Origin: Streptomyces asiaticus
GTDB taxonomy: Bacteria; Actinomycetota; Actinomycetes; Streptomycetales; Streptomycetaceae
DNA: 64,000 bases
Assembly (NCBI RefSeq): GCF_018138715.1
Contig: NZ_JAGSHX010000006.1
Coordinates: 992,001 to 1,056,000 of the forward strand
Reading direction: 5' to 3'
Position 1 is the stretch's first letter; the number at the start of each line of letters is the position of its first letter. Shown piece after piece: positions 3,206-64,000 of the stretch. The translations under genes and the position numbers were made by a program. Under the pieces are notes generated by a model. It made no database searches. It had not been told where the DNA came from and saw only the letters and a list, made by a program, of their open reading frames with translations.

Positions 3206-3211
3206 CCAGGC

Positions 3212-6074: not shown

Positions 6075-7646
<1,572 letters not shown>

Positions 7647-7687
7647 CCGACCGGCAGGGGACCGCACCCGCACTTACAGGAGGGATC

Positions 7688-10001: not shown

Positions 10002-10009
10002 GGCTCGGT

Positions 10010-11212: not shown

Positions 11213-11969
<757 letters not shown>

Positions 11970-11973
<4 letters not shown>

Positions 11974-13726: not shown

Positions 13727-13826
13727 GCCACTGTCCCCATTCCTTCGGGATTTCCTGTACCTCCTGTTTTAGCGAGGGGGCGGTTTCGCCGAGGTTTCAG
13801 TGGGGGTTACGGCCGGAGATGCGCGG

Positions 13827-13951
13827 GTCCCGGGGCGCCGGGCATGCGGAAGTCCCGGGCCGCCGGGCAGGCGGAAACCTCGGTCCACCGAGCAGGCGGA
13901 GGTCCCGGGGCGCCGGGCAGGCGGAAGCCCCGGGCCGCCGTACAGGTGGTT
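13827..13951. repeat. 25-bp tandem array, five units
   Basis: Five imperfect 25-bp units (13827, 13852, 13877, 13902, 13927) with consensus GTCCCGGGSCGCCGGGCAGG followed by CGGAA occupy the gap between the two repeat-protein genes. The first, second and fourth units are nearly identical; the third and fifth are diverged. Shorter GGCACCGGGCGG copies follow near 13984-14008. No gene is evident in 13727-14009. The spacing is too short and has no spacers, so it is a minisatellite and not a CRISPR array. Confidence 0.85.
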
Positions 13952-14009
13952 CGGCGGACCGGGGCGGAGGAGCCACCCGGCAGGGCACCGGGCGGGGCAC
14001 CGGGCGGGG

Positions 14010-14579: not shown

Positions 14580-14599
14580 ACTCTCTCTCCACCCTCTCC

Positions 14600-15375
14600 C
14601 TAATTCTTCGTCAGCAGCTGCGCGGAAATAAGCCGACCGATCGTTTCGAGGGGCTCTCCGGTGAGCATCCCGTCGTGATCGGAGGCGATCCGTACCGGTT
14701 CGATATGCCCGTCGACGTACGGCGCCCAGCTGTCCGGAGCCAGCGGCGCGGGGGCCGACGCGGGCCGACCCTCCGTGGCGACGAAGAGCAGCAGTTCTCC
14801 GCGGAAGACGCCGGGCGTGTGGTGCTGGAGGAGCCGGTTGTTGTTGGCGTTGACCCTCTGGATCTCGGAGAGCATCCGCACCCGCTTGGGCCGCCCGCCA
14901 CGGGGCCCTTCAGTGGGCTCGCCGGCGGGCCCACCGAAGGCTCCGTCGGTGGGCCCGTCGGTGGGCCCGTCGGCAAACCCGTCAGCGGGCTCGCCGGTCG
15001 GCTCCGCGTCGTCTACGCCGGGGTAGCCATCGAGGCTGACCAGGAGGTCCACCGTTTCACCCCGCTGCTGGAGCAGTGCCGCCATCGCATGGGCCACGGT
15101 GCCACCGAACGACCAGCCGAGGAGGTGATAGGGCCCGGCCGGCTGCACGGTCCGGATCCTCGCCACGTAGTCCGCGGCCATCTCCTCGACCGTCGGTGGC
15201 AGTGACTCATCCGTGCCGAAACCGCGGGCCTGCAACGCGTAGACCGGCCGGTCCGGCGGCAGGTGATCCGCGAGTTCCGCGTAACAGCGCCCCAGCCCGG
15301 TGCTCGGGTGGACGCAGAACACGGGCGGCCGGTCGCCTTCCGTCCGGAGTGGCAGCAACAGGCCGGTGGCGTCGG
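14600..15375 (-). other. Type I thioesterase domain with repetitive insertion
   Basis: The C-terminal part of the last NRPS is an alpha/beta hydrolase: [10 protein letters not shown] near its start, the nucleophile motif GWSFGGT and the histidine segment SDHDGML near the end. Between them, at 14896-15013, an insertion of about 39 residues is built from GPTDG/GEPxDG-like units. This falls after the nucleophile in the lid region, where substrate chains enter. The domain follows T12 directly, with no glycopeptide-type X domain between. Confidence 0.9.
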
Positions 15376-18300
15376 AGTCGGTGCGGGCGGTGCCGTTCTC
15401 CGCACCGTCGAGCAGTCGGGCCACGTCGGCCACCGTCGGGGCGGTGAACACCGCGCGGATGCTGACCTCGGCGCCGAGGACGGCCCGGATCTGGGCAATC
15501 AGCTTCATCACCAGGATCGAGTCGCCACCGAGCTCGAAGAACGACGCCTCGGCGCTCACCACCTCCTCCAGGCCCAGCACCTCGGCGAAGAGGGCACACA
15601 GGCGCTCCTCGGCCGGCGTCTCCGGGCCGCGTCCCGCCGTTGCCGCGCCGGTGAAGTCGGGTGCGGGGAGTGCGGCCCGGTCCAGCTTGCCGTTCACCGT
15701 GATCGGCAGCGCGTCAAGCGTCACAAACGCGGCCGGGACCATGTAGTCGGGCAGCCGATCAGCGAGGAACGCCCGCAACCGAGGCACATCCACGGCGTCA
15801 TCCGACACGATGTAGGCGACCAGCCGCTTGTCCCCCGTACGGTCCTCCCGGGCGATCACCGCCACCTGACCAACACCCTGGTGGGCGGCGAGGGCGGTCT
15901 CGATCTCACCGGGCTCGACACGGAAACCACGCACCTTGACCTGGTCGTCCACGCGGCCGCCGAAGACGAGCTGGCCGTCCGCGGTCCACTTGGCCAGGTC
16001 ACCTGTGCGATACATCCGCCCGCCCGTGAAGGGACACGCGACGAAGCGCTCCGCGGTCAGCCCGGGGCGGCCGAGATAGCCACGTGCAAGGCCCGGACCC
16101 GCGACATACAGCTCACCCAGCACCCCCACGGGGACCGGGTGGAAACGCTCGTCCAGCACATAGACAGCGGTGTTGGGGTTCGGACGGCCGATGGGCACCG
16201 GGCCCGAGCCGGACGCCTCCAGGGGCTCGCTCATCGTCGCGCACACGGTGACCTCGGTCGGCCCATACGCATTGACCATCCGCCGCCCCGGCGCCCACCG
16301 CTCGACCAACGACGGCGGGCACACCTCGCTGGCCACCACCACCGTGCCCAAGCCCTCGGGCAACTCCTCCACCGTGGCCAGCACCGACGGCGACACCGTC
16401 ACATGCGTGACACCCAGCGCCGCGGCGGTCGTGCCCAGCGAGCCGTTGGGCGGGAGCATGTCCTGGTCCGCCATCACCAGGGCGGCGCCCGAGAGCAACG
16501 CCATGAACAACTCCCATACCGAAGCGTCGAAGCTCAGCGACGCCAGCTGCAACACCCGCGCATCAGCACCCACCGCAAACCGCTCGATCTGCGCGCTGAC
16601 GAGGTTTCCGATGCCGCGATGCGTGACCGCCACGCCCTTGGGACGGCCCGTCGAGCCCGATGTGTAGATCACGTACGCCACGTCGTCCACGCCCACGGAG
16701 ACCACCGGCGCCGGGGCCGCGTCCGCGGCTTGCACTGCGGACGGATCCCACACGATGCACTCGACCCCGCCCGGAACCAGCCCCCGAGTCTCCTCGGAGC
16801 ACACCACCAGCACCGGCCCGGCATCCTCGACCATCCACCCGACCCGCTCCACCGGATACGCCGGATCCACCGGCACAAACCCAGCCCCCGCCTTGGCAAT
16901 CCCCAGCAGCACCGGCACCACATCCGCCGACCGCTCCAGGACCACCGCGACCAGGTCACCGCGCCCCACACCCCGCGCGGCCAACACCCCGGCCACCCGA
17001 TCCGACCGATCCCTCAACTCCGCGTACGACCACTCCTCACCACCCGCGCCCACCACAGCCACCGCATCCGGGGACAGCTCAGCCCGTGCGTCGAACAACT
17101 CCGCCAATGGCCGCACGGGAACGTCCCGCTCGGTGGCGTTCCATCCCTCCAGCACCCGCTCCCGCTCCACGCCATCGAGCACCTCGAACTCACTCACCCG
17201 AGCGGTAGGGTCGGCCGCCACCTGATCCAGCAACCTCGCCAGCCGCTCGGCGAGCCCCTCCACCGTCCGCTCATCAAAGAGGTCGGTGGCATACAGGAAC
17301 GCGCCGCGGATCCCGCCCGGATTGCCGTCGCCGTCGCGGTGCTCGGCCAGATCGAGGGCCAGATCCACCCGTGCCGAAGCCTCCGTCCCCGACTCGAACG
17401 GACGCACCCGCAACCCCGGCAGATCCCACAACCGCCCCTCACCCGAAGGCGCACCCTGAAGACCCAACGACACCTGAAACAGCGGATTACACCCCAACGA
17501 ACGCGCAGGATTGAGATCCTCCACCAACCGCTCAAACGGCACATCCTGATGGGCATACGCGTCCAGATCCGCCTCCCGCAGCCGGGACAACAACTCCACG
17601 AACGTCGGATCGCCACCCACATCGCTCCGCAACACCAACGTATTGACGAAGAACCCCACCAGCCCGTCCAAGGCCGCATCCCCACGCCCCGCCACCGCCG
17701 TACCGACCGGAATATCCTTCCCCGCACCCATCCGCGACAGCAGTGCGGAGATGGCGGCGTGCATCACCATGAACATCGTCGCCCCGCCCCGCTGGGCGAG
17801 CTCCGTGAGCCGGGCGTGGGTTTCCGCGGTGATGGCGATCGGCACTTCGCCACCGCGGAAGGACGGCACCGCCGGCCGGGGCCGGTCCGCGGGCAGGACG
17901 AGCTCCTCCGGCACACCGGCCAGCGCCTCACGCCAGTAGCCGAGCTGGCCACTGATCACACTGTCCGGCTCCTCGAGGGTGCCCAGCACCTCACGCTGCC
18001 ACAGCGCATAGTCCGCGTACTGCACCGGCAACGGCTCCCAGCCGGGCGCACGGCCCGCCCGACGCGCCGCATACGCCACCCCGACCTCCCGACCCAACAC
18101 ACCCATCGACCAACCATCAACCGCGATGTGATGCGCCACGATCAACAACACATACTCCGACGGACCCGTCTTCAACAGCCGCGCCCGCCACGGCAGATCA
18201 ACGCTCAGATCAAAGCCCCGGGCGGCATAGCCACCGAGCACCTCCCGCAGATGTTCCTCCCTGGTCTCCACCACGATCAGCGGCGGCCGACCCCCCTCGC

Positions 18301-21300
18301 CCGCCAGCACATGCTGACGCGGTTCACCAGCGGTCTCGGGAAAGACCGTACGCAGACTCTCGTGCCGGTCGGCCACGTCCCCGAGCGCCGCCTCCAGAGC
18401 AACCCTGTCCAGCTCACCGGAGAGCCGGAGCGCCAGCGGGAGGTTGTACACCGCACCGTCGCCGACGCCTTCGAGCCGGTTGAGGAACCACATCCGCTGC
18501 TGGGCGTACGACAGTGGCAGCACCTCCGGGCGCGGCCGAGCGGTCAGTGCCTGCTGGGCGGTGCCGTCCTCCGCACCGTCGAGCAACCGGGCCACGTCGG
18601 CCACCGTCGAAGCGGTGAACATCGCACGGATGCTGACCTCGGCGCCGAAGGCGGCCCGGATCTGGGCAATCAGCTTCATCACCAGGATCGAGTCGCCACC
18701 GAGCTCGAAGAACGACGCCTCGGCGCTCACCACCTCCTCCAGGCCCAGCACCTCGGCGAAGAGGGCACACAGGCGCTCCTCGGTGGGCGTCTCCGGGCCG
18801 CGTCCCGCCGTTGCCGCGCCGGTGAAGTCGGGTGCGGGGAGTGCGGCCCGGTCCAGCTTGCCGTTCACCGTGATGGGCAGCGCGTCGAGCGTCACAAACG
18901 CGGCCGGGACCATGTAGTCGGGCAGCCGATCAGCGAGGAACGCCCGCAACCGAGGCACATCCACGGCGTCATCCGACACGATGTAGGCGACCAGCCGCTT
19001 GTCCCCCGTACGGTCCTCCCGGGCGATCACCGCCACCTGACCAACACCCTGGTGGGCGGCGAGGGCGGTCTCGATCTCACCGGGCTCGACACGGAAACCA
19101 CGCACCTTGACCTGGTCGTCCACGCGGCCGCCGAAGACGAGCTGGCCGTCCGCGGTCCACTTGGCCAGGTCACCTGTGCGATACATCCGCCCGCCCGTGA
19201 AGGGACACGCGACGAAGCGCTCCGCGGTCAGCCCGGGGCGGCCGAGATAGCCACGTGCAAGGCCCGGACCCGCGACATACAGCTCACCCAGCACCCCCAC
19301 GGGGACCGGGTGGAAACGCTCGTCCAGCACATAGACAGCGGTGTTGGGGTTCGGACGGCCGATGGGCACCGGGCCCGAGCCGGACGCCTCCAGGGGCTCG
19401 CTCATCGTCGCGCACACGGTGACCTCGGTCGGCCCATACGCATTGACCATCCGCCGCCCCGGCGCCCACCGCTCGACCAACGACGGCGGGCACACCTCGC
19501 TGGCCACCACCACCGTGCCCAAGCCCTCGGGCAACTCCTCCACCGTGGCCAGCGCCGACGGCGACACCGTCACATGCGTGACACCGAACTCCGCCACCAC
19601 CTCGCTCAACGACCCATTGGGCGGAAGCGTGTCCGAGTCCGCCATCACGAGAGCCGCGCCCGAGAGCAACGCCATGAACAACTCCCACACCGATGCGTCA
19701 AAGCTCAGCGACGCCAGCTGCAACACCCGCGCATCAGCACCCACCGCAAACCGCTCGATCTGCGCGGCCGCCAGGTTCCCGATGCCACGATGCGTGACCG
19801 CCACGCCCTTCGGCCGCCCCGTCGACCCCGACGTATAGATCACATACGCCACATCATCGACATCCACCGAGGTCGCGGGCGCGGGCTCCGCCACCACCTC
19901 AGACGGATCCCACACCCAGGACTCCACCCCGGCCGGAAGCAACCCCCGAGTCCCCTCCGAGCAGAGGACCAGCGCAGGCGCCGAATCCTCGACCATCCAC
20001 TGGATCCGCTCGACCGGATACGCCGGATCCACCGGCACAAACCCCGCCCCCGCCTTGGCAATCCCCAACAACACCGCCACCACATCCGCCGACCGCTCCA
20101 ACACCACACCCACCAGATCACCGCGCCCCACACCCCGCGCGGCCAACACCCCCGCCACCCGATCCGACCGATCCCTCAACTCCGCGTACGACCACTCCTC
20201 ACCACCCGCACCCACCACAGCCACCGCATCCGGGGAGACGGCCGCCCGCTCGTCGAAAAGCTCACCCAACGGCCGCACGGGAACCTCTCGCTCGGTGGCG
20301 TTCCACTCCACCAGCACCCGCGCCCGCTCGCCCGGGCCCAGCACGGCGACCTCACTCACCCGAGCCGCAGGATCCGAGGCGACCTGCTCCAGCACCCGCA
20401 CCAACCGCTCGGCGAGCACCTCCACCGTCCGCTCATCAAAGAGATCGGTGGCATACAGGAACGCGCCGCGGATCCCGCCCGCATTGCCGTCGCCGTCGCG
20501 GTGCTCGGCCAGATCCAGGGCCAGATCCACCCGTGCCGAAGCCTCCGTCCCCGACTCGAACGGACGCACCCGCAACCCCGGCAGATCCCACAACCGCCCC
20601 TCACCCGAAGGCGCACCCTGAAGACCCAACGACACCTGAAACAGCGGATTACGCCCCAACGAACGCGCAGGATTGAGATCCTCCACCAACCGCTCAAACG
20701 GCACATCCTGATGGGCATACGCGTCCAGATCCGCCTCCCGCACCCGGGACAACAACTCCACGAACGTCGGATCGCCACCCACATCGCTCCGCAACACCAA
20801 CGTATTGACGAAGAACCCCACCAGCCCGTCCAAGGCCGCATCCCCACGCCCCGCCACCGCCGTACCGACCGGAATGTCCTTCCCCGCACCCATCCGCGAC
20901 AGCAGCAGCGCCAGCGCCGCCTGGACAACCATGAACATCGTGGCCCGCCCGCGCTGGGCGAGCGCCACCAGTCGGGCGTGGACCTGCGGGCTCACCCTCA
21001 CCGGCATGGAACGGCCTCGGAAGGAGGAGACGGCGGGCCGGGGCCGGTCGGTCGGCAGGACGAGCTCCTCCGGCGCACCGGCCAGCGCCTCACGCCAGTA
21101 GCCGAGCTGGCCACTGATCACACTGTCCGACTCCTCGAGGGTGCCCAGCACCTCACGCTGCCACAGCGCGTAGTCCGCGTACTGCACCGGCAACGGCTCC
21201 CAGCCGGGCGCACGGCCCGCCCGACGCGCCGCATACGCCACCCCGACCTCCCGACCCAACACACCCATCGACCAACCATCAACCGCGATGTGATGCGCCA

Positions 21301-24300
21301 CGATCAACAACACATACTCCGACGGACCCGTCTTCAACAGCCGCGCCCGCCACGGCAGATCAACGCTCAGATCAAAGCCCCGGGCGGAGTGCGCCGCCAG
21401 GACCTGCGGCAATTCCTGCTCCGTCGTTTCCACGACCACGAGCGACGGTCGGCCGGCGCCACCCGCCAGCACATGCTGACGCGGTTCGCCATCGGTCTCG
21501 GGAAAGACCGTACGTAAACTCTCGTGCCGGTCGCCGACATCCCCGAGCGCCGCCTCCAGAGCAACCCTGTCCAGCTCACCGGAGAGCCGGAGCGCCAGCG
21601 GAAGGTTGTAGCCCGCGCCTTCGCCCACGCCTTCGAGGCGGTTGAGGAACCACATCCGCCGCTGGGCGTACGACAGCGGTACGGAGTCAGGCCGGGGGCA
21701 CGGCGCCAGCGCGGGGCGGGCCCGGCCGTCCGGGTCGCCTTCCTCCTCGATACGGCGGGAGAGGAGGGCGACCGTGGCGGCGGTGAAGAGCTCACGGATG
21801 GTGATCCGGGTGTTGAGCACCGCCCGGACCCTGGCAATGAGCCGCATCGCCAGGAGTGAGTCACCGCCGAGCTCGAAGAACGAGACATCGGCACTGACCC
21901 GCTCCACGCCGAGCACCTCGGCGAAAAGCCCACAGAGGATCTCTTCAGTGGGGGTCGCCGGGCCCCGGCCCGCCACGGTGGCTGTGGCGTCGGGGGCCGG
22001 GAGCTTCGCGCGGTCCAGCTTGCCGTTGACCGTCAACGGGAGCGCATCCAGCACGACGACCGCCGGGACCATGTACTCCGGCAGCCGGTCCGCCGCGAAC
22101 TCCCGTACGGCTGCCAGGTCCAGCTCCCCATTGGGGACCACGTACGCGACCAGCCGCTTGTCCCCCGGCCCGTCGCCACGTACCACCACCGCGACCTGGC
22201 CCACGCCCTCACAGGCGGCCACCACCGTCTCGATCTCACCCGGCTCGACGCGGAAACCACGCACCTTGACCTGCTCATCGACCCGCCCCGCGAAGACCAG
22301 ATCACCATCGGCCGTCCACTTCGCCAGGTCGCCACTGCGATACATCCGGCCACCCGGCGCAGCGAACGGGCAGGCCACGAACCGCTCTGCCGATAGCCCC
22401 GGCCGACCGATATAGCCCCGGGCCAGCCCGGCACCGGCGATATAGACCTCGCCGACCACGCCAACCGGCACCGGCCGCAGGAACGGATCCAGCACAAACA
22501 CCTTGTTGTTGGGCAGCGGCCGACCGATAGGGGGCGCAGCCTCCAACCCGGCCTTCAGCGCGGTCGCGGTAGCGGTGGTGATGACGGTGGCCTCGGTCGG
22601 CCCGTAGGTGTTCCACACCCGCGCACCCGCCGACCACCGACCAGCCAGCTCCGCACTCAACCGCTCCGCGCCCAGAACCCAGTTCCGCACACCCTGGACG
22701 GCATCCGGGTCCAGCACCCCGAGCAGCGACGGCACCACACTCGCCACCCGCACCCCACACCGACCGATCATCTCCGCCAACGCCTGCGGATCCCTACGCT
22801 CCTCCGCACTCGCCACCGCCAACGTCCCACCAGCCGCAAGGGTGACGGCGACATCGAGGACGGCGGCGTCAAAGCTGAACGACGCGAACTGCAACGCCAC
22901 CACACCCGCGTCCATCCCCAACACCGGACGCATCGCCTCAGCCAGATTCGCCACACCACCATGAGCGACGGCCACACCCTTCGGCCGCCCCGTCGAACCC
23001 GACGTATAAATCACATACGCCAACTGATCCGGGACAACGACCGTCCCCAACGGCTCCGCCGAGTAGGCATCGGCACCCTCGAGAAAGACAGCACGAGCAT
23101 CACCGAGCGGGACGCCATCGAGGCAATCGACCGTGCCCAGGACCACCTCGGCCCCGCTGTCCGCGATCACAAAGCCCAACCGGTCGGCCGGATACTCCGG
23201 ATCCAGCGGAACGAACGCCCCACCCGCCTTCCACACCGCCAACTCCGCCACCACCATGTCCACCGACCGCGCCAAACACAACGCAACCCGCGACTCCCGA
23301 CCAACACCAGCACCGGCCAACAACCGCGCCAACCGATTCGCCCGCCCGTCCAACTCCCCATAGGACAACGCCTCACCACCACACCGCACCGCCACCCCAT
23401 CCGGCGCCTCCGCAACCCACCCCTCAAACCGCTCCACCACCGAACCGCCACACAGCGCAGCCTCCGTGGCATTCCACTCCGCCACCACCCGAGCCCGCTC
23501 CACCTCCCCCACCACATCCAGCCGACCGACCAACGTCTCCGGATCGGCCGCCATCTGCCCCAGCACCCGGAGTACCTGGTCGACCAGCCCCTGGGCCGTC
23601 TCCTCGTCGAACAGGTCCGGCCGGTAGCTCAGCCGCATGCCCAGGCCGCCGCTCGGGCCGACCACCAGGCCGAGCGGGTAGTTGATCGACTCCCGGAGCC
23701 CATGCTCGGTGAACTTCAGGCCGCCCGGTCCGCGTCGATCGGCCTCATCGCCCGATGGCTTATCGCCCGATGGCTTGTCGCCCGGCGGCTTCCGCGCGTT
23801 CGTGCCCGAAGGGAAGCTCTCGAACGCCATGATGGTGTCGAACGTCGCCCCGGGCCCGGCCTGCCGCTGGATATCGCTGAGGCTCAGATACTGGTAGTCC
23901 ACCAGCGCCGCCTGCTCGGCCTGGAGCTCCGTCAGCAGTTCGGCCACCGACTGCGCAGGGTCGAAGCGCACGCGTACCGGCACGGTGTTGATGAAGAGCC
24001 CCAGCATGCTCTCCATGCCCGGCAGGTCCAGCGGCCGTCCGGCCACGCTGGCGCCGAACACCACATCCCGTCGGCCGGTCAGCTTGCCGACGACGAGAGC
24101 CCAGGCGGCCTGAACGACCGTGTTCAGGGTGAGGCCGTGGAAGCGGCGCGTCAGGTCGCGCAGCGCCTGGTCCAGCTCCTTGCTCGCCCTGCCGGACACC
24201 ATGGCGGAGTGCGCCGGCGCCCCGTTGTACTCGGCCGGGGCCACCAGTGTCGGCTCATCCGCCCCGGCCAGCATCTTCCGCCAGGCCGCCATGGCTTCTT

Positions 24301-24874
24301 CCTTGTTCTGGCGGGCGAGCCAGGCGAGGTAGTCACGGTACGGGGTGACGGGCGGCAGACCGTGTGCGCTGCCCCCGGCCTCGTAACACGTCCACAACTC
24401 CCGCATCAGCACCGGCAGCGACCAGCCATCCAGCAGGATGTGATGCAGCGTGACCATCATCCGGTACACATCCGGCCCGACCTTGACCAACAACACCTTC
24501 AGCAACGGCGGCACCGCCAGATCGAAACGCCGCTCCCGCTCCTCGATCCCCAACCGCTCCGACTCCACACGGGCCGCTTCCGCGTCCAGCCCGGACAGGT
24601 CCTCCTCACGCCACGGCAGGGTCACCCGGCGCATGACGAGCTGGACCGGGGCCCCGGAGGCACGCCGCTGGAAGCCCGCGCGCAGGCTCTCGTGGCGGTC
24701 GAGCAGCGCCTGCCAGGACGCCCGCAGCACCGCGGAGTCCAGCTTGCCCTCCAGGCCGGTGATCATCTGCTCGACGTAGACGTCGATGCCCTCCTCGTCG
24801 TACACCGCATGGAACAGCAGACCCTCCTGTAGCGGCGACAGCGGCCATACCCCCACCAGAGCGGAGTCGGTCAT
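14600..24874 (-). CDS. Nonribosomal peptide synthetase, modules 10-12 with terminal thioesterase
   Basis: A 3424-residue synthetase: C-A-T, C-A-T, C-A-T-TE. The first C domain opens with [14 protein letters not shown] and is of the DCL type expected after an epimerised donor. The next two open with PLSYAQxRMWF (LCL type). All C domains have HHxxxDGWS and all T domains have GGDS. Predicted substrates are X, Phe and Phe. The ATG at 24874 is one base after the stop of the preceding NRPS and has AAGGAG seven bases upstream; an in-frame start further upstream would add only Arg/Ser-rich sequence. The TE releases the finished chain by cyclisation or hydrolysis. Modules 11 and 12 share long near-identical DNA stretches. 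Confidence 0.95.
14896..15013 (-). repeat. In-frame Gly/Pro/Asp repeat in the thioesterase lid
   Basis: On the coding strand this stretch encodes short units such as [16 protein letters not shown] and [10 protein letters not shown]. At DNA level, GTGGGCCCGTCG is repeated in tandem on the plus strand near 14950. The reading frame is preserved. Confidence 0.8.
18528..21688 (-). other. NRPS module 11 (C-A-T), predicted Phe
   Basis: LCL-type C, A and T domains. The pocket residues read by alignment to GrsA are D-A-W-T-V-A-A-V-C-K, one step from the GrsA phenylalanine pocket. Most of the A domain and the preceding C domain are nearly identical in DNA to module 12. No epimerase is present, so L-Phe is expected, though Trp cannot be ruled out. 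Confidence 0.75.
21689..24874 (-). other. NRPS module 10 (C-A-T), unusual pocket X
   Basis: DCL-type C domain, matching an epimerised upstream residue from module 9. The A pocket is D-A-L-S-V-G-T-V-I-K, shared with modules 3, 4 and 9. The C-A region has a 15-bp in-frame repeat encoding KPSGD units. The substrate is not assigned with confidence; Dpg is a hypothesis based on DpgC in the cluster. Confidence 0.7.
23748..23792 (-). repeat. 15-bp in-frame repeat, three units, in C10
   Basis: TCGCCCGATGGCTTA-type units at 23748, 23763 and 23778 encode [15 protein letters not shown] on the minus strand, in a loop of the C domain of module 10. The other DCL domains lack this stretch. Confidence 0.8.
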
Positions 24875-24875
24875 C

Positions 24876-48500: not shown

Positions 48501-50169
48501 GGATACTCCGGATCCAGCGGAACGAACGCCCCACCGGCCTTCCACACCGCCAACTCCGCCACCACCATGTCCACCGACCGCGCCAAACACAACGCAACCC
48601 GCGACTCCCGACCAACACCAGCACCGGCCAACAACCACGCCAACCGATTCGCCCGCCGATCCAACTCCCCATACGACAACGCCTCACCACCACACCGCAC
48701 CGCCACCCCATCCGGCGCCGCCACAACCCGCGCCTCGATGCGCTCCACGATCGAACCACCGTGCAGCGCAGCCTCCGTGGCATTCCACTCCGCCACCACC
48801 CGAGCCCGCTCCACCTCCCCCACCACATCAATCTCACTGACCCGCACCCCCGGATCAGCCGCCACCGCCTCCAACACCCGCACCAACCGCTCCACCAACC
48901 CCCGCGCCGTACCCACATCAAACAAATCCACCGCAAACAACAACGCCCCACCCAACCCCGCCGGCGCCCCCACACCATCACGGTGCTCGGCCAGGTCCAG
49001 CGACAGATCGAAGCGGGCCGGGACCTGGGCGGCCGCCGGTATCCGTCGAACCCGCAGCCCCGGCAGGCCCCATTGCGGCGCCGGTAGGCTCTGGAGGGCC
49101 AGCAGGACCTGGAACAGCGGGTTGTGGGAGAGCGAGCGTGACGGGTTCAGGTCCTCGACCAGTCGCTCGAACGGCACGTCCTGATGCGCGTACGCGGCCA
49201 GATCGGTCTCCCGCACCTGGGCCAGCAGCTCCGTGAAGGACGGGTTCGCGCTGAGATCGGCGCGGACGACCAGGGTGTTGACGAAGAACCCGGCCAGGTC
49301 GTCCAGCGCCGGGTCGCCACGGCCCGCGATCGGCACGCCGATGGTGATGTCGTCGCCCGCACCCACCCGGCTGAGCAGCACGGAGAGGGCGGCGTGCACC
49401 ACCATGAACATGGTGGCGCGACCACGGCGGGCCACGTCCAGCAGCCGGGCGTGGGTTTCCGCGCCGATCTGGATCGGCACTTCGCCACCCCGGAACGACG
49501 ACATCGCAGGACGGGGCCGGTCGGTCGGCAGCGCGAGCTCCTGGGGCGCACCGGCCAGCGCCTCACGCCAGTAGCCGAGCTGGCCGCTGATCACGCTGTC
49601 CGGGTCCTCGGGATCGCCCAGCACCTCGCGCTGCCACAGCGCGTAGTCCGCGTACTGCACCGGCAGCGGCTCCCACCCGGGCGCGCCGCCCGCCCGCCGA
49701 GCCGCATACGCCGCCCCCAGGTCCCGCGCCAGCACACCCATCGACCAGCCGTCGACGGCGATGTGATGCGCGACGATCAGCAGCACGTAGTCCGATGGTC
49801 CCGTCTTCAACAGCCGTGCCCGCCACGGCAGATCGACGGTCACATCAAACCCACGGTCGGCGTGCAACCCGAGTTCGGCCGCGAGGAGTTCCTCGCTGGT
49901 CTCCACGACAACGAGTCGCGGTCGGCCCGCCTCGCCCTCCAGCACCCGCTGGCGCGGCTCGCCATCGGTCTCAGGAAACAACGTGCGCAGGCTCTCGTGC
50001 CGGTCGGCCACATCGCCCAGCGCGGCCTCCAGCGCGGTGACATCCACCTCTCCGGTCAGCCGAAGGGCCAGCGGCAGGTTGTAGACCGCTCCGGCCCCCG
50101 GGTTGGTCTCCTCGAGCCGGTTGAGGAACCACATGCGCCGCTGGGCGTACGAGAGCGGCAGCGCCTCCG
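45530..50169 (-). other. NRPS module 3 (C-A-T-E), unusual pocket X, D-configured
   Basis: LCL-type C ([12 protein letters not shown]), A pocket D-A-L-S-V-G-T-V-I-K, T3 with [13 protein letters not shown] and a complete E domain ([24 protein letters not shown]). The following module, at the start of the next protein, has a DCL condensation domain. Confidence 0.75.
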
Positions 50170-53100
50170 GCCTCGGCCGCGGCGTCAGCGGGGGCCGGGC
50201 GGCCGTACCTCCAGCCGCCGCGACGAGGCGGGCGACTCCGGCCACCGTGGGAGCGGCGAACAGCTCGCCGATGTTGAGCTCGGTGTCGAGGACGGCGCCG
50301 ATCCGGGCGATGAGCTTCATCGCGAGGATCGAGTCGCCACCGATGGTGAAGAACGACACCTCGGCGCCCACTCGTTCAAGGCCGAGAACCTCGCGGTACA
50401 GGCCACAGAGGATCTCCTCGGTCGGCGTGGCGGGACCGCGCCCGCCGGCGTCGGAGAAGTCGGGGGCGGGGAGGGCGGCGCGGTCCAGCTTGCCGTTGAC
50501 GGTGACCGGCAGGGCGTCCAGGGCGACGACCGCGGCGGGGACCATGTGGTCCGGCAGCCGCTCGGCCACGTACTCCCGCAACCCCGCAGTATCCACATCC
50601 CCGTCGGGGACCACGTACGCCACGAGCCGCTTGTCACCGGGGCGGTCCTCCCGTACGACCACGGCGACCTGCCCGACACTCCGATGCCCGGCGAGAACCG
50701 CCTCGATCTCACCCGGCTCCACCCGGAAACCACGCACTTTGACCTGGTCATCAGCGCGCCCACCGAAGACCAGCTCACCATCGGCCGTCCATGTGGCGAG
50801 GTCGCCGGTGCGATACATCCGCCCGCCCGTGAACGGACACGCCACGAAGCGCTCCGCCGTCAGCCCGGGGCGGCCGAGGTAACCCCGCGCGAGCCCCGGC
50901 CCCGCGACATACAGCTCACCCGCCACGCCTTCGGGCACGGGTCGCAGAAACTCGTCCAGCACGAACACCCGCGTATTGGCGATCGGACGGCCGATCGGCA
51001 CCGGCCCGGACGGCTCCAGAGGCCCACTCATCGTCGCGCAGACCGTGACCTCGGTCGGCCCGTACGCATTGACCATCCGACGGCCCGGTGCCCACCGCTC
51101 CACCAGCCCCGGCGGACACACCTCACCCGCCACCACCAACGTCCGCAAACTCCCCGGCAGCTCCTCCACCGTCGCCAGCACCGACGGCGGCACCGTCACA
51201 TGCGTCACACCGAACTCCGCCACCGCCTCACTCAACGACCGCTTCGGCGGCAACCTGTCCGCACCCGCCATCACCAACGCGCCACCCGAAAGCAACGCCA
51301 TACACATCTCCGACACCGCGGCGTCAAAGCTCAACGACGCCAACTGCAACACCCGCGCATCAGCACCCACCGCAAACCGCTCGATCTGCGCAACCGCCAA
51401 ATTCCCCAGGCCACGATGCGTCACCGCCACACCCTTCGGCCGCCCCGTCGACCCCGACGTATAGATCACATACGCCACATCATCGACACCCACCGAAACC
51501 GCAGGCACAGACTCCGCCACCACCTCAGACGGATCCCACACCAAGCACTCCACCCCGACCGGAACCAACCCCCGAGTCCCCTCCGAGCACACCACCAACA
51601 CCGGCCCGGCATCCTCGACCATCCACCCAATCCGCTCCACCGGATACGCCGGATCCACCGGCACAAACCCCGCCCCGCCTTCACCACCCCCAACAACACC
51701 GCCACCACATCCACCGACCGCTCCAACACCACACCCACCAGATCACCGCACCCCACACCCCGCGCAGCCAACACCCCCGCCACCCGATCCGACCGACCCC
51801 CCAACTCCGCGTACGACCACTCCTCACCACCCGCACCCACCACCGCCACCGCACCCGGCGAAACGGCCACCCGCGCATCGAACAACTCACCCAACGGCCC
51901 CACCGGCACAACCCGGTCAGTCGCGTTCCACCCCTCCACCACCCGCGCCCGCTCACCGCACCCCAGCACCTCGATCTCGCTCACCCGAGCCGCCGGATCC
52001 GCCGCCATCTGCTCCAGCACCCGCACCAGCCGCCGTACCACGCCCCGGGCGGCGTGCTCGTCGAACGCGTCCGGGCGGTAGTCCAGCCAGAACTTCAGCT
52101 CGTCCGCCGGGTCCACCCCCAGCGTCAGCGGGAAAGTGGTGGCCATCCGGGTCGTGCTGTCCGTCAGTCGCAGCGGGGCGGCCGGTCCGGTCTCGCCCGC
52201 GTGGAAGTTCTCGAAGGCCATCAGGGTGTCGAAGGTGGCGCCAGGTCCGGCCAGGCGCTGGATCTCCTTGAGGCCGAGGTGCTGGTGGTCGAGCAGCGCC
52301 GACTGCTGGGCCTGCACCGCGCCGAGCAGGCGGGCGATGGAGTCTGCTGGGCGCAGCCGGACCCGTACGGGGATGGTGTTGATGAAGAGCCCCAGCATGT
52401 CCGCCATCCCCGCCAGCTCCGGCGGGCGGCCGGCCACCGCGGCGCCGAACACCACATCGCTGCGGCCGGTGAGCTTGCCGACGATCTGGGCCCAGGCCAC
52501 CTGGAGCACGGTGTTCAGCGTGACGCCGTGGCCTCGGGCGAGCTCTCGCAGCGCACCGGCCAGATGGTCGCCGGTCTCGGCGAGGACCTTGCGGGTGAGG
52601 ACGGGTTCGGCGTTCGGATCGAGCGCGGCGACCGTCGTCGGCCCGGACACGCCATCCAGCGCCCGCTGCCAGGCGGCACGCGCCGCGTCCCGGTTCTGGC
52701 GGCGCAGCCAGGCCAGATACTCGCCGTAGGGCGTGGTCGGCGCCAGTGCGCGGATGTCGCCGCCGGGGGCGCAAGCGGCCCACAGCTCGCGGATGAGGAT
52801 CCGCAGCGACCAGCCGTCGAGCACGATGTGGTGCAGGGTCACGACCATGCGGTGGCGGTCGCGGCCGGTCTTCACCAGCAGGATTCGTGCCAGGGGCGGG
52901 GCGGTGAGGTCGAAGCGGCGGGCCCGTTCCGCGCTTTCCAGACGGTCCGCCCGGTGCCGCGCCGCCTCGGCGCCGAGGTGCGACAGGTCCACCTCGCGCC
53001 AGGGCAGGGTGACGTGGCGGACGATCACCTGGACGGGTTCGTCCACGCCGACCAGGCGGCGGAAGCCGGTGCGCAGACTGCCGTGCCGTTCGACGAGCGC

Positions 53101-56100
53101 CTGCCAGGTGGCGCGCAACTTCCCGGCGTCCAGGGGCCCTTCGATCTCCAGGACCTTCTGTTCGACATAGATGTCCCGCTCCCGCTCATCGAACATCGCG
53201 TGGAAGAGCAGGCCCTCCTGGAGGGGTGACAGCGGCAGTACATCGACTACGCCGCCCGCCACCTCGGCCTCGAGCTCCTCGATCTGGTCCTGGTCGAGTG
53301 CCATCAGCGGGAAGTCGGATGGCGTATGGCCACCGCCGGTGTGTGCGGCGAGGCCGGACAGCGTCTCCGCCCACGCTTCGAGCAGGCGTCGGGCGGCCGG
53401 TGCGGTGAGGAGGGGCTCCGGCCAGTCCAGGCTGAGGACCAGTTCGGTTCCCTCGAGACCGGCCGCCGCTTCGAGCGGGTGGGTGGGCGGCCGGTCGTCG
53501 TCGCCCGGGGCGGTGAAGCCGAGCTGCGGGGTGGGCAGGGCGGCGAGCGTGGCGGCGGTGTCGGGGTTGAGGTGGCGCAGCAGGCCGTAGCCGAGTCCAT
53601 CGCCGGGGACGACCCGCAGCCGCTCCTTGATCTGCTTCATGGCCCGGCCCGCGGCAGGCCCGCCGAGGCGGATCTCCGCGAGGTCGAGGGCCCCGGTGTC
53701 GAGCCGTACGGGGTGCCTGTGGGCGAACGAACCCACGGTGCGGGAGAGATCGGCGCCACTGCCCAGGGCGGCACGTCCGTGGTCCGGCACCGCCATGTCC
53801 ACGAGGAAGCCACCGGCCCGGTCCTGGCCGTCGCGCCAGGCGGCGAGGGCCACGGTCAGCCCGGTCAGCAGGACGGTCTCGGCGCCGGTGTGGAACGCGT
53901 CCGGCAGGGCGGTCAGCACCGCCGCCGTGGTGTCGGCCGGGATGCGTACGGAGGCGCACCGCACCGGAGCGTTCGCATCGCGGGCCGGGTCGGCGGGCCG
54001 GGTGGTGAGCAACGGGTCGCCGGCGGCGAGGAGTTCGGTCCAGGCGGGCAACTCCGCACGCCGTTGGGCGCTGTCGGCCTGCGTGGCCAATGCCCGTGTC
54101 CAGTGACGGAACGACGTCGGCACCGACGCGATCTCCCGCCCCGCGATCGCGGCGGCCATGTCCTCCAGCACGATCCCCCAGGACATCGCGTCGACCACCA
54201 GCCGGTCCGCTACGACGAGCAGCCGCCCGGGCGCGTCCGGCCCGCTGTCGCACCACACGGCACGGGCCATCACCCCGGCCCGCCGGTCCAGCCGCCGCCC
54301 GGCCTCGGCCGACTCGGCGGCGAGCAGCTGCTGGAGCCGATCGGCGTCCATGCCTGCCGTCGCCACCCGCCGCGTCCACGGGCGGACGGACACCGAGCCC
54401 GCCGGGGGTACGGTCAGCCGCCGCTCCGGCGTGGTCTCCAGCCGGGCCCGCAGCATGTCGTGGCGATCGACGACGGCCTGTAGCGCACGGGCGATGTCGT
54501 CCAGGTCGAGCCCGGCCGGGACGTCCAGCACGGCCGACCGGAATCCCGCGGCCCTCTCGGGTCTCGCGGGCCCCTGAAGTCCTTCGTGGTCCAGCAGTTC
54601 GTGCATGGCCGGGGAGAGCGGCAGATGTCCGGCGCCCCGCGCCCGGTCACCTGTCGCGGCGCTCTCGTCCAGCGGTTCGGCGATGTCGGCGAGGCGGGCC
54701 GGGGTGGCGAGCTCGAACACCTGGTACGGGGCGATCACCAGCCCGGCGCGCCGGGCCACCGACACCAGCAGCATGGTCAGAATCGAATCGCCGCCGAGCT
54801 CGAAGAAGGATGCCTCCGCGCTGACCCGCTCCAGGCCGAGGATCTCGCCATAGAGCCGGCACAGCACCTCTTCGGTGGGCGTCCGCGGACCACGGCCCTC
54901 GGCGGCGTCGGTGAAGTCGGGGGCGGGGAGGGCGGCGCGGTCCAGCTTGCCGTTCACCGTGACCGGGAGCGCGCCCAGCGCGACGACCGCGGTGGGCACC
55001 ATGTACTCCGGCAGCCGCTCGGCCACGTACTCCCGCAGCCCGCCGGTGTCCACATCCTCGTCAGGGACGACGTAGGCGACGAGCCGCCGGTCCCCGGGGC
55101 GGTCCTCCCGTACGACCACGGCGACGTGGCCGACACTCCGGTGCCCGGCGAGAACGGCCTCGATCTCCCCCGGCTCCACCCGGAAACCCCGCACCTTGAC
55201 CTGCTCATCGGCCCGGCCACCGAAGACCAGCTCACCGTCGGCCGTCCGCCGGGCGAGGTCGCCCGTGCGATACATCCGCCCGTCCGCGAACGGGCAGGCC
55301 ACGAACCGTTCCGCCGTCAGCCCCGGGCGGCGCAGATAGCCCCGTGCGAGCCCCGGCCCCGCGACGTACAACTCGCCCAGCACGCCCTCGGGCACCGGCC
55401 GCAGGCGCTCGTCCAGCACAAACACCCGTGTGTTGGCGATGGGCCCGCCGATCGGCACCGGTCCGAACGGCTCCAGAGGCGCGCTCATCGTGGCGCACAC
55501 GGTGACCTCGGTCGGGCCGTACGCATTGATCATCCGACGGCCCGGCGCCCACCGCGCCACCAGCGCCGGCGGGCACACCTCACCCGCCACCACCAGCGTC
55601 CGCAGGCTCTCCGGCAGCTCCTCCACCGTCGCCAGCACCGACGGGGGGACGGTCGCGTGCGTGACGCCGTATTCCGCCACCGTCCCGCTCAACGACCCTT
55701 GCGGCGGCAACCTGTCCGCACCCGCCATCACCAACGCGGCACCCGAAAGCAACGCCATGCAGATCTCGGACACCGCGGCGTCGAAGCTCAACGACGCCAG
55801 TTGCAGCACCCGCGCATCGGCGCCCACCGCGAACCGCTCGATCTGCGCGGCCGCCAGGTTGCCGATGCCACGATGCGTCACGAGCACGCCCTTGGGACGG
55901 CCGGTCGAGCCCGACGTGTAGATCACATACGCCACATCATCGGCATCCACGGACACCGGGGGCGCCGATTCACCCTCCGCGGCCGGATCCCAGACCAGGC
56001 ACTCCACCCCGGCCGGCACCAAGGCCCGCGTCTCCTCCGAGCACACCGCGAGCACCGGCCCGGCGTCCTCGACCATCCATCCGATCCGCTCGGCCGGATA

Positions 56101-56379
56101 CGCCGGATCGACCGGGACGAACCCCGCCCCGGCCTTCGCCACCCCCAGCCACACCGCCACCAGTTCGGCGGACCGGTCCAGCACCACCGCCACGAGGTCA
56201 CCGCGCCGGACCCCGTGCGCGGCCAGCGCCCCGGCGACTCGGTCCGCCCGCGCCCCCAGCTCCGCGTACGACCACTCCAGACCGTCCGCGCCGATCACCG
56301 CCACCGCGTCCGGCGACTCGGCCACCTGGGCGTCGAACAACTCGCCCAGCGGTCGCCAGGATTCGGTCGTGCCATGCAT
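45530..56379 (-). CDS. Nonribosomal peptide synthetase, modules 1-3, interrupted by a one-base frameshift
   Basis: The first synthetase of the line: A-T-E, C-A-T, C-A-T-E. It starts directly with an adenylation domain, so it has no lipid- or peptide-accepting C domain and should begin the chain with a free amino acid. The ATG at 56379 follows AGGGAGA by seven bases. The frame breaks at 51673-51676, where four C stand in place of the five in the paralogous module 6. Adding one base makes the gene 10851 bp (3616 residues) with one continuous frame. As written, the upstream part stops at 51466. Predicted residues are Tyr, Tyr and D-X. E1 lacks its catalytic residues; E3 has HHLAVDTLS and EGHGR intact. 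Confidence 0.9.
50170..53249 (-). other. NRPS module 2 (C-A-T), predicted Tyr, frameshifted
   Basis: The C domain opens [14 protein letters not shown] and keeps HHIVLDGWS. The A pocket is D-A-S-T-V-A-A-V-C-K, as in module 6. T2 reads FFTIGGDSI, differing from the usual FFELGGDS but keeping the phosphopantetheine Ser. The frameshift lies in its A domain. Confidence 0.75.
51673..51676 (-). other. Frameshift site in the A domain of module 2
   Basis: Plus strand reads CCCCGCCCCGCC here and CCCCGCCCCCGCC in the equivalent position of module 6 (about 37361-37373), with near-identical flanks. The missing C changes [12 protein letters not shown] to VKAGRGLC and abolishes the A domain between core motifs A2 and A3. 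A homopolymer sequencing error and a true mutation are both possible. Confidence 0.88.
53250..56379 (-). other. NRPS module 1 (A-T-E), predicted Tyr, degenerate epimerase
   Basis: Initiation module. The A pocket is D-A-S-T-V-A-A-V-C-K (Tyr or beta-hydroxytyrosine type). T1 has [10 protein letters not shown]1 begins [16 protein letters not shown], but its HHxxxD motif is [10 protein letters not shown] and the EGHGR motif is replaced by VPDHGR. Both catalytic residues are therefore lost, and D-configuration at residue 1 is doubtful although the next C domain is DCL-like. Confidence 0.78.
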
Positions 56380-56442
56380 GGATGTCTCCCTCTGCCGCGG
56401 TACGCGATGGCGGTGGTCGGCGCTACGTGTGCTCAGCCGTGC

Positions 56443-58572
56443 TCAGCCATGTCCGGGCGGCGGGCCGCCGGGCATCGCCCGCATGCCCGGATGAGGTCCC
56501 GGGCCCGGGAAGGGCGCAGGACCGGGCCCTGGCCCCGGGAACGGGCCGGCCCCCGGGCCCGCCGGATACGGCCCATGGGGAGGACCGACCGGAGCATGTC
56601 CGTGGGGCCCCGGTCCATGGCCATTGCCCACCGGCCCGTGGCCATGGGGCGGCACCGGCCCATGGCCATTGGGTGACGCCTCATGCCCACCCGGCCCCCC
56701 GCGCCCCGCGAACTGCGTGCGGTACAGCTCCGCGTAGAGCCCACCCAGGGCGAGGAGTTCCTCGTGGGTGCCGCTCTCCCGCACCCGGCCGCCGTCGATC
56801 ACGAGGATCTGGTCGGCGTCGCGGATCGTGGACAGCCGGTGGGCGATCACCAGGGAGGTGCGCCCCGCGAGCGCGGTCTCCAGTGCCCGTTGCAGCGCGG
56901 CCTCGGACTCGGAGTCGAGGTGTGCCGTGGCCTCGTCGAGGACGACGACCGGTGGCGCCTTGAGCAGGAGCCGGGCCATGGCGATGCGCTGTTTCTCGCC
57001 GCCGGAGAGCCGGTAGCCGCGGTCGCCGACGACGGTGTCGAAGCCGTCGGGCAGGGACTCGATCAGGCCCCAGATCTGGGCGGCCTTACAGGCGTCGATC
57101 ATCTCCTGCTCGGTGGCCTCCGGACGGGCGTAGCGGAGGTTGTCGCCGATGGTGGTGTGGAAGAGATAGGCGTCCTGGGTGACGACGCCGATGGTGTCGT
57201 AGAGGGACTCCAGCGTGAGGTCCCGGAGGTCGTGTCCGTCGATGCTGACGGTGCCTTCGCCGGGGTCGTACAGCCGGGGTACGAGATGGGTGATGGTGGT
57301 CTTGCCGGCGCCTGAGGGGCCGACGAGGGCGGTGAGCTTCCCGGCGGGCAGCCGGAAGCTCAGCTCGCGCAGGGTCCAGTCGTTCCTGGTGCGCTCCGAC
57401 CGCGGGATGGCGATCGATTCGAGGGAGGCGAGCGAGACGTCCGCGGCGGCCGGGTACGAGAACGAGACGCCGTCGAAGACGATTTCGGGCGCGCCGTCGC
57501 GGGGCAGGGCGATCGCGTCGGGCTTCTCGGAGATGAGCGGCTTGAGGTCGAGGATCTCGAAGAGCCGGTCGAAGCTGACGAGCGCGGTGACCACGTTGGC
57601 CTGGGCGCTGGAGAGCTGGTTGATGGGGCCGAAGAGCCGGGTGAGCAGCGTGGCCAGGGCCACCAGGGTGCCGATCTCGAAGGCGTCGTCGATGACGAGG
57701 CGGCCGCCGACGCCGTAGACCACGGCGGTGGCGAGCGCGCTGAGGAGGACCATCGACAGGAAGAGCAGCTTGCCGTTGACGGCGGTCAGGACGCCGAGGT
57801 CGCGGACCTTGCCGGCCAGCTTGGTGAACTGGCGCAGCTCGCGGCTGGGCCGGCCGTACAGCTTGGTCAGCAGCGCGCCGGTCACGTTGAACCGCTCGTT
57901 CATCAACGCGCCCATTTCGGCGTTCTGCTCCATCTGGGAGCGCATGAGCCGCTGGAGCCGGCGCCCGACGACCTTGCCGGGGAGGATGAAGAAGGGCAGC
58001 ACCACCAGGGAGATCAGGGTGATCACCCAGGACAGGTAGAACATCGTGATGAGGACGAACAGCAGGGTGAGCACGGCCGAGACGACCGTGGACAGCAGTG
58101 ACGTCAGGGCCTGCTGGGCCCCGACCACGTCCGCGTTGAGCCGGCTGACCAGGGCGCCGGTCTGGGCCCGGGTGAAGAACGCCAGCGGCTGGCGCTGCAC
58201 ATGGTCGAAGACCTTGGTGCGCAGTTCGTAGACGAGCCCTTCACTGACCCGGGCCGAGTACCACGCCTCGCCGAACCCCAGCAGCGCGCCGAGGACCGCC
58301 AGTCCGCCGACCGCCACGGCGATACCCACGACGACATCGGAATCATGTTCGGCGATGCCATTGTCGATGAGGTATTTGAAGAGGATGGGGACGGCCACCA
58401 CAATGGCGGCGTTCGCCACGGTCATGAGCAGCAGCAGACAGATGCTGACGCGGTACGGCCGGGTATACGGAACTATCCGTTTCGCGGTCCCGGCTTTTAT
58501 TTTCTGCTTGGTCACCGATGGGTCGGGGCCCACCGCGCGAATCATCATCGGCCCTGGGCCGCCTATGGACAC
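56443..58572 (-). CDS. ABC exporter (fused TMD-NBD, MsbA-like) with Gly/Pro/His tail
   Basis: A 709-residue half-transporter. Six membrane helices occupy residues about 40-330. The nucleotide-binding domain follows, with Walker A GPSGAGKTT near residue 418, signature LSGGEKQRIAMARLL and Walker B VVVLDEATAHLDS near 543. The last 85 residues are a low-complexity tail of HGPG/GPGP units with many His. The GTG start at 58572 follows AGGAG by seven bases. It lies 30 bp after the MbtH gene and 63 bp before the first NRPS, so it should be co-transcribed and export the peptide. Exporters in this position are common in glycopeptide-type clusters. The His-rich tail is unusual. Confidence 0.93.
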   Translation of the reverse strand: MSIGGPGPMMIRAVGPDPSVTKQKIKAGTAKRIVPYTRPYRVSICLLLLMTVANAAIVVAVPILFKYLIDNGIAEHDSDVVVGIAVAVGGLAVLGALLGFGEAWYSARVSEGLVYELRTKVFDHVQRQPLAFFTRAQTGALVSRLNADVVGAQQALTSLLSTVVSAVLTLLFVLITMFYLSWVITLISLVVLPFFILPGKVVGRRLQRLMRSQMEQNAEMGALMNERFNVTGALLTKLYGRPSRELRQFTKLAGKVRDLGVLTAVNGKLLFLSMVLLSALATAVVYGVGGRLVIDDAFEIGTLVALATLLTRLFGPINQLSSAQANVVTALVSFDRLFEILDLKPLISEKPDAIALPRDGAPEIVFDGVSFSYPAAADVSLASLESIAIPRSERTRNDWTLRELSFRLPAGKLTALVGPSGAGKTTITHLVPRLYDPGEGTVSIDGHDLRDLTLESLYDTIGVVTQDAYLFHTTIGDNLRYARPEATEQEMIDACKAAQIWGLIESLPDGFDTVVGDRGYRLSGGEKQRIAMARLLLKAPPVVVLDEATAHLDSESEAALQRALETALAGRTSLVIAHRLSTIRDADQILVIDGGRVRESGTHEELLALGGLYAELYRTQFAGRGGPGGHEASPNGHGPVPPHGHGPVGNGHGPGPHGHAPVGPPHGPYPAGPGAGPFPGPGPGPAPFPGPGPHPGMRAMPGGPPPGHG
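56446..56706 (-). repeat. Low-complexity His/Gly/Pro-coding tail of the ABC exporter
   Basis: The 3' end of the exporter gene encodes units such as NGHGPVPPHGHGPVGNGHGP and PFPGPGPGPAPFPGPG. On the plus strand this appears as repeated CCATGGCC/GGGCCC-like blocks. About eleven His residues lie within the first half of the tail. Confidence 0.8.
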
Positions 58573-58602
58573 GACGCTCTCCTCGGCTTGGGTCGGTCCG
58601 AC

Positions 58603-58809
58603 CTATGTGAGCTGGTCGATGAGGCTCTTGGGGCGCATGTCGCGCCAGTTCTCCTCGATGTAGTCCAGGCAGTTCTTGCGGGCGTCCTCGCCGAATACGA
58701 CGCGCCAGCCGGCCGGTACCTCGGCAAAGGCGGGCCACAGCGAATACTGGCCCTCGTCGTTCAGCAGGACCAGAAAGGAACCGTTTTCGTCGTCGAACGG
58801 ATTGGTCAT
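58603..58809 (-). CDS. MbtH-like NRPS accessory protein
   Basis: A 68-residue protein with the full family signature: [10 protein letters not shown] at the start, [10 protein letters not shown], a conserved Trp in AGWRVVFGE and the closing [17 protein letters not shown]. Proteins of this family bind the N-terminal part of adenylation domains and are needed for their folding or activity, especially for Tyr- and Hpg-type domains. The ATG at 58809 is chosen because [10 protein letters not shown] is the standard start and AAGGAG sits six bases upstream; the longer frame adds unrelated residues. It is the first gene of the minus-strand biosynthetic operon. Confidence 0.96.
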
Positions 58810-59030
58810 CTTCACTCCTTCCAACTTCCCTGGAGCGGGCCGGAATTCAAGGTAACGAGGGCCCATCGGGAGCGGCAAGGTCGACTATTGAAGTGGCGTC
58901 CAACCGCGTATTCTCTGCACTTGGACAACGGGTGAAACCCCGCGGAAACCGGAGCCGGGGCATTCTGGATCTCGTTGTCCAGGGGGCAGGGCCGAGCAGG
59001 CCGGTTGGACAGACCGAGGAGGGGGAGCGG
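58810..59030. promoter_or_regulatory. Divergent promoter region between mbtH-like and response-regulator genes
   Basis: This 221-bp gap must hold the promoters of the NRPS operon (minus) and of the two-component genes (plus). It contains TGGACAACG at 58922-58930 and its inverted copy CGTTGTCCA at 58973-58981. GTCCAAC at 58898-58904 and GTTGGAC at 59004-59010 form a second inverted pair around a similar centre. The symmetry suggests binding sites for the adjacent OmpR-type regulator. This is inferred from the repeats only. Confidence 0.5.
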
Positions 59031-59684: not shown

Positions 59685-59692
59685 GGCCGACG

Positions 59693-63426: not shown

Positions 63427-64000
<574 letters not shown>

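Follow-up and report, generated by a model that had tools for sequence, protein, structure and literature searches.

Ramoplanin and enduracidin are long, chlorinated, hydroxyphenylglycine (Hpg)-rich peptides of 17 residues that carry a lipid starter and Orn/Thr/Asn-type residues. Kistamicin and the other type V glycopeptide-like products are shorter peptides built from Tyr, Hpg and 3,5-dihydroxyphenylglycine (Dpg), with a CndH/CmlS-type halogenase, an X domain in the synthetase and cross-links introduced by cytochrome P450 enzymes (P450s). Feglymycin, the linear 13-mer of Streptomyces sp. DSM 11171, is not cross-linked and has Dpg and Hpg as its main building blocks; it begins with D-Hpg and holds five D-Dpg residues according to an excerpt of PMC5133696, and hence has at least six D centres. 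Here we describe a nonribosomal peptide synthetase (NRPS) locus of Streptomyces asiaticus (assembly GCF_018138715.1; 11.88 Mb in six contigs) that lies in a 64,000-nucleotide stretch, referred to as the window, at positions 992001-1056000 of contig C6 (NZ_JAGSHX010000006.1). We regard it as likely that its three synthetase proteins act collinearly to make an all-aromatic dodecapeptide with two D-Dpg-Dpg pairs, served by a CndH-type halogenase. A reading of this DNA made from the sequence only (the sequence-only reading) had proposed a likeness to ramoplanin, enduracidin, feglymycin and the glycopeptides in building blocks, with a different length and order, and both the domain parse and the substrate codes agree with it. 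With feglymycin the locus shares the Dpg and Hpg supply genes (DpgA, B and C, aminotransferase, HmaS-like and Hmo-like), the predicted lack of cross-linking and a two-component system (excerpts of PMC7148328 and PMC8698665); with kistamicin it shares the monomer kinds, the halogenase type, the Tyr code and similar Hpg codes, in another module order. The lipid starter, the 17-residue length and the Orn/Thr/Asn-type residues that mark ramoplanin and enduracidin are absent.

The 12-module architecture is not chance. Pfam, motifs and hidden Markov models (HMMs) built from the window gave 12 adenylation (A), 11 condensation (C), three epimerization (E) and one thioesterase (TE) domains for the locus (Table 1), arranged with carrier (T) domains as A1-T-E, C-A2-T, C-A3-T-E in NRPS 1, C-A4-T to C-A9-T with an E domain at the end in NRPS 2, and C-A10-T, C-A11-T, C-A12-T-TE in NRPS 3. 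Pfam was run on the whole of NRPS 1 and NRPS 3, and the NRPS 2 domains come from the C-domain search, motifs and window-built HMMs; that independent search of the strain's own genome also yielded 11 C and 3 E domains at the locus. The synthetase order 1-2-3 follows from there being a single starter, a single TE and a set of E-to-D-type-C junctions. The chain start has no condensation domain, since NRPS 1 opens with an A domain (match from residue 15), and no lipid starter C domain was found at its N-terminus. Pfam, motifs and HMMs likewise revealed no X domain, the gap between T12 and TE being too short for one, and no P450 match occurred at 992-1110 kb of the contig, the nearest one (979.2-980.1 kb) falling beyond the window. 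On these searches we discarded the ideas of an X domain, of P450 action and of a lipid starter. The module order and the absence of both a lipid starter and an X domain claimed by the sequence-only reading are thereby borne out, and its three co-linear genes hold as to order and modules but not as to frame, NRPS 1 being two overlapping open reading frames (ORFs).

Pocket codes read from the alignment fell into five types: DASTVAAVC (A1, A2 and A6), DALSVGTVI (A3, A4, A9 and A10), DAATAAAVC (A5), DVFHLGLLC (A7 and A8) and DAWTVAAVC (A11 and A12). For calibration, clusters of known product were parsed identically. DASTVAAVC is also the code of kistamicin module 6 (Tyr), and the Hpg modules 4, 5 and 7 of kistamicin carry D[IA]YHLG[LM]LC; DAWTVAAVC was presumed to denote Phe. 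These codes agree with the Tyr earlier proposed at positions 1, 2 and 6, Hpg at 7 and 8, Phe at 11 and 12 and an aromatic residue at 5, the last being bulky and perhaps Trp. All 12 residues are now predicted to be aromatic, with no aliphatic majority, as had been claimed for every predictable residue. The four positions previously left open (3, 4, 9 and 10) share one code, which does not contradict that caution and now most likely denotes Dpg. The kistamicin cluster was recognised by its strain name and by features given in an excerpt of PMC6565677, namely a core-less A domain in module 1, an extra E domain in module 3 and none in module 4; the code of this module 3, which takes Dpg and whose E domain that paper reports, is DAHQAGTLY. 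Dpg-7 is present in all type I-IV glycopeptides (same excerpt of PMC6565677), and module 7 (Dpg) of two Amycolatopsis clusters taken as vancomycin-type reads DPYHGGTLC.

A tree was built from 48 A domains, leaving out domains below 250 bits or with a gapped code (kistamicin module 3 among them); its DALSVGTVI domains grouped apart in a clade of 17 rows (100/100). DALSVGTVI and both known Dpg codes have in common the pair G301-T322, as we presume these pocket positions to be numbered, and Hpg codes have G301-L322; the first Asp is also common to them but is near-universal. Because the clade is separate, a co-occurrence test was made across 392 genomes of the genus, in which A10 matched 23 (E ≤ 1e-150) and DpgC 64 (E ≤ 1e-100). 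DpgC was present in 21 of the 23 A10-matching genomes versus 43 of the 369 others (Fisher 2.5e-16, a P value that serves only as a guide because DpgC was scored genome-wide and the genomes are related). When the code of the best locus was read in all 23, 19 genomes had [AG]LS[VL]GTV[IM], every one with DpgC (19/19), and the two with DAMCVGTVI were exactly the two without DpgC; the two remaining codes, DALNQGAVM and DASTIAAVC, occurred once each, both in genomes with DpgC. HmaS, which is required for Hpg, was searched for in 12 genomes (E ≤ 1e-40), nine of which had a match. A linked HmaS was absent from four clusters in which DALS-type codes but no Hpg codes were read from the parsed modules: genomes G122 and G301 had no match anywhere, and S. 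varsoviensis and S. pseudovenezuelae (the latter with a split, only partly parsed cluster) had matches on other contigs only. HmaS was linked in six clusters with Hpg codes (G007, G016, G017, G018, G019 and G381; linkage in G018 judged by its DpgC locus), while of the other two genomes G015, with a partly parsed cluster, had no match and G020 had an unparsed cluster. Modules 3, 4, 9 and 10 therefore most likely activate Dpg, an assignment made from gene co-occurrence and pocket likeness. With DALSVGTVI = Dpg as a rule, many Dpg-rich clusters could be interpreted correctly. No feglymycin-type alternating-Dpg order to confirm the code was found among the parsed clusters.

C domains that follow E domains are expected to accept a D residue, and C2, C4 and C10, each directly after an E domain, formed one group (56-75% mutual identity) with 26-35% identity to the other eight, which are 64-87% identical among themselves. 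In known E domains the second His of HHxxxD and the Glu of EGHGR are catalytic. E9 (NHLVVDGVSW and LEGHGR) retains both, and E3 keeps the second His together with VEGHGR, so that a D configuration is expected at residues 3 and 9. In E1, DRLVVDA stands where HHxxxDG is expected and the Glu of EGHGR is lost; both losses occur in all five aligned sequences (window and four relatives), and Streptomyces sp. S465 and G381 show a truncated E1 match and an A1-C2 distance about 500 bases below that of the window. Residue 1 is thus probably L. The predicted peptide would be Tyr1-Tyr2-D-Dpg3-Dpg4-aromatic5-Tyr6-Hpg7-Hpg8-D-Dpg9-Dpg10-Phe11-Phe12, with an estimated mass, as a linear chain free of chlorine, of 1,907 Da if residue 5 is Phe and 1,946 Da if it is Trp.

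The two accessory genes claimed for the locus, DpgC and a halogenase, were both recovered. DpgC lies partly inside the window and was confirmed in the flanking genome together with other Dpg and Hpg genes: up to about 7.8 kb past the right edge are DpgB, DpgA, aminotransferase, prephenate dehydrogenase, HmaS-like and Hmo-like genes, of which DpgA and DpgB, like DpgC, were called by NCBIfam equivalogs, all over cut-off, and the HmaS-like and Hmo-like genes owe their names to family assignment (Pfam FMN_dh, NCBIfam 4HPPD) and gene context. The flavin halogenase scored 579 bits to CndH (3e1t) and 247 bits to CmlS, and its translation contains GGGPGGS and WFWYIP, which we take to be the named halogenase motifs. 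We infer that it acts on a carrier-bound substrate, where it would chlorinate a phenolic residue, Tyr or Hpg, and on the presence of this gene the product is probably chlorinated. The TE would then release a linear or cyclic peptide for secretion by the ABC exporter, with no P450 cross-linking expected. Antibacterial or antiviral action might be proposed only by analogy with feglymycin and kistamicin.

Several observations weigh against this reading. The A5 code fits no known code at hand; C2 belongs to the D-accepting group despite a dead-looking E1; E3 has the unusual TLSL instead of GVSW after its HHxxxD motif; and no DpgD was found among the flanking ORFs put to family searches. The vancomycin-type Dpg A domain groups among Hpg domains, away from the DALSVGTVI clade, DpgC was scored anywhere in a genome and not in the same cluster, and the Dpg assignment, given that separate clade, draws on co-occurrence and pocket likeness. 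That separation, and an assignment made entirely from sequence, would also suit DALSVGTVI modules that take another phenylglycine or aromatic acid in place of Dpg, which we consider unlikely in view of the tight link to DpgC and the independence of HmaS.

The remaining point concerns NRPS 1, whose two ORFs, in different frames, overlap near 51,660, within an early stretch of A2 whose DNA contains G-rich runs; the A2 pocket lies entirely within the second ORF. Such a break could stem from faulty assembly or be a true defect of the strain, and it may leave the strain without product. An assembly line that is dead in this strain, the A2 frame break being real and the cluster decaying, would account for the two overlapping ORFs and for the degenerate E1, but there is a single break in about 14,000 synthetase codons, the GC content at third codon positions (GC3) is of coding type throughout, the break falls within a G-rich run, a place of common assembly errors, and S. 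iranensis, S465 and G381 have the NRPS 1 protein in one continuous frame. The E1 change is common to the relatives and is therefore not strain decay, and we think it improbable that the line is dead. The collinear all-aromatic dodecapeptide synthetase remains our preferred reading.

Cross-linking as in type V glycopeptide-like peptides was considered because of the same monomer kinds, the presence of Hpg- and Tyr-type A domains, a halogenase 72% identical to that of the kistamicin genome and a two-component system, as in type V clusters (excerpt of PMC8698665). It is very unlikely given the lack of a P450 match across 992-1110 kb, of an X domain in the last module and of any agreement between 12 modules and the seven of kistamicin. 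The name feglymycin has been attached to a relative by annotation: in the part of Table 2 of PMC10525797 that we draw on, antiSMASH lists an S. rugosispiralis 'T3PKS, NRPS' cluster as feglymycin at 84%, and an excerpt of PMC11947806 gives a feglymycin match above 70% in a strain closest to S. asiaticus. Because the only DpgC match of the S. rugosispiralis genome falls in its locus sister to the present one, the 84% label most likely refers to this cluster family. That the cluster is itself the feglymycin cluster, as the label, the common building-block genes and the two-component system would have it, is the least probable alternative and was rejected against the peptide structure, not the DSM 11171 synthetase sequence, on 12 A domains versus 13 residues, three E domains (one degenerate) versus at least six D centres, a Tyr code versus D-Hpg in first place, and the absence from the 12 modules of codes for Val and Asp, which feglymycin reportedly holds. 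Automatic annotation thus gives at least one cluster of the family an undeserved known name, and dereplication may skip it.

No described 12-mer of this kind was found among the titles and abstracts listed by searches of open-licence PubMed Central, with MIBiG and subscription papers outside that scope. In the text searched there, 'hydroxyphenylglycine' together with 'dodecapeptide' returned only PMC10608164, which in the portion seen applies them to nyuzenamides and ohmyungsamycins, peptides of other kinds, and no paper combined 'dihydroxyphenylglycine' with 'chlorotyrosine'. On these searches the cluster is an orphan, a variant form among the systems that use the building blocks of feglymycin and the type V glycopeptides.

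DpgC relatives at 91-98% identity occur in S. iranensis, S. rugosispiralis, S. sabulosicollis, S. endocoffeicus, S. antioxidans and S465, which we take to be members of the S. violaceusniger clade. The flanking genes and first module are common to all of these except S. sabulosicollis, which matches by flanking genes only, its contig ending there. In S. iranensis, as in the window, the line closes with a pair of Phe modules; its cluster is spread across two contigs, between which module 7 is missing. S465 and G381 have 11-module lines that end in one DAWNVAGVC module, and in S. rugosispiralis, whose cluster was parsed piecewise, module 10 is followed by one DAWSVAGVC module. Modules 11 and 12 of the window (15461-21685) are near-duplicates, with DNA 91.7% identical and blocks at 98-100%. 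They are 91.6 and 91.8% identical to their S. iranensis counterparts, and because each is as close to its counterpart, the pair is probably older than the split between the two lineages; the near-100% stretches suggest later exchange. Microbispora amethystogenes has an 81% identical halogenase within the same halogenase-exporter-regulator block, and its synthetase opens with a DALSVGTVI module before running off the contig. The chances are about even that the clusters of these related Streptomyces species make up a new class of long, uncross-linked, all-aromatic chlorinated peptides with two D-Dpg-Dpg pairs, standing behind the feglymycin label and occurring in 11- and 12-residue forms through gain or loss of a Phe-type module. 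The natural 11- and 12-module versions are useful for studying NRPS module gain and loss and TE tolerance.

Table 1. Features of the S. asiaticus locus (window positions)
Feature	Position	Strand	Basis
Two small lipoprotein-like ORFs, peptidoglycan-binding protein, MacB/LolD-type ABC pair	10010-14579	-	Pfam; directly downstream of NRPS 3
Whole synthetase set	14603-56121	-	domain parse
NRPS 3, modules 10-12, C-A-T / C-A-T / C-A-T-TE	14600-24973	-	ORFs, Pfam, codes, window-built HMMs
Terminal thioesterase	14603-15373	-	Pfam Thioesterase, window-built HMMs
NRPS 2, modules 4-9, C-A-T x5 + C-A-T-E	24876-45533	-	genome C-domain search, motifs, codes, HMMs
E domain, module 9	25293-26327	-	HMMs, motif alignment
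NRPS 1 second part: rest of A2, T2, module 3 (C-A-T-E)	45530-51664	-	ORFs, Pfam, HMMs
E domain, module 3	45911-46939	-	HMMs, motif alignment
NRPS 1 first part: A1-T-E1, C2, start of A2	51466-56379	-	ORFs, Pfam, HMMs
E domain, module 1, degenerate	53518-54543	-	motif alignment
ABC exporter (membrane + ATPase)	56443-58572	-	Pfam
MbtH-like protein, matched part	58651-58809	-	PF03621, 103.6 bits (contig C6 1050651-1050809)
Response regulator	58893-59684	+	Pfam
Sensor kinase	59564-61084	+	Pfam
Alpha/beta hydrolase	60924-61874	-	Pfam
Flavin halogenase	61877-63370	-	Pfam; nearest solved structure CndH (3e1t)
DpgC, cut by window edge	63427-64000	-	ORF runs 704 bases beyond edge

Dpg clusters of S. aculeolatus (L083-L085), G122 and G301 resemble the window in having DpgA-C or DpgC nearby and DALS-type A domains 68-76% identical to A10, and differ in having E domains in most middle modules, a degenerate last A domain, another order and no halogenase in the cluster stretches examined. 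DALS-type codes were found in eight of 11 readable A domains in G122 and eight of nine in G301, so that both clusters are predicted to make peptides composed almost wholly of Dpg and rich in D residues. In the Dpg clusters L083-L085, L094-L099, L101-L102, L107, L108-L109, L159-L162 (G122) and L166-L168 (G301), the module ahead of the TE pairs a C domain with a degenerate A domain that scores very weakly (about 50-110 bits), a trait that the window cluster lacks. The long synthetase of G119 (L155-L158) has a weakly matching first C domain and, beside DALS-type codes, others that we take to be Thr-, Asp-, Orn- and Gly-like; it presumably resembles a ramoplanin/enduracidin-type lipopeptide system using Dpg. 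Elsewhere in the S. asiaticus genome, a second DpgC lies near the beginning of contig C1 (1888-3105), and contig C6 opens with an NRPS (1-20000) that carries the codes DAYHSGTLI and DGLQFGTVI; the two loci might represent opposite ends of a single cluster that was split.

Within the window, the region singled out by the sequence-only reading ends at 58809, the 5' end of the MbtH match. The long halogenase ORF extends to 63889 and overlaps DpgC, the likely start being that listed in Table 1. The alpha/beta hydrolase also adjoins DpgC genes in several relatives without halogenase. A predicted 'tRNA' inside NRPS 2 was dismissed for want of a proper anticodon, and ORFs opposite to the NRPS genes were taken as mechanical. 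The lipoprotein, peptidoglycan-binding and MacB/LolD block downstream of NRPS 3 is kept in the relatives, and its genes are candidate cluster members with a possible role in export or self-protection; the two lipoprotein-like ORFs (13121-13726 and 14010-14579) are 35-39% identical to each other. Farther downstream, a GH10 glycosidase gene with a CBM2 domain (6165-7646, + strand) is overlapped by a + strand ORF with a polysaccharide deacetylase domain (7160-8449), and these genes are probably neighbours and not cluster members.

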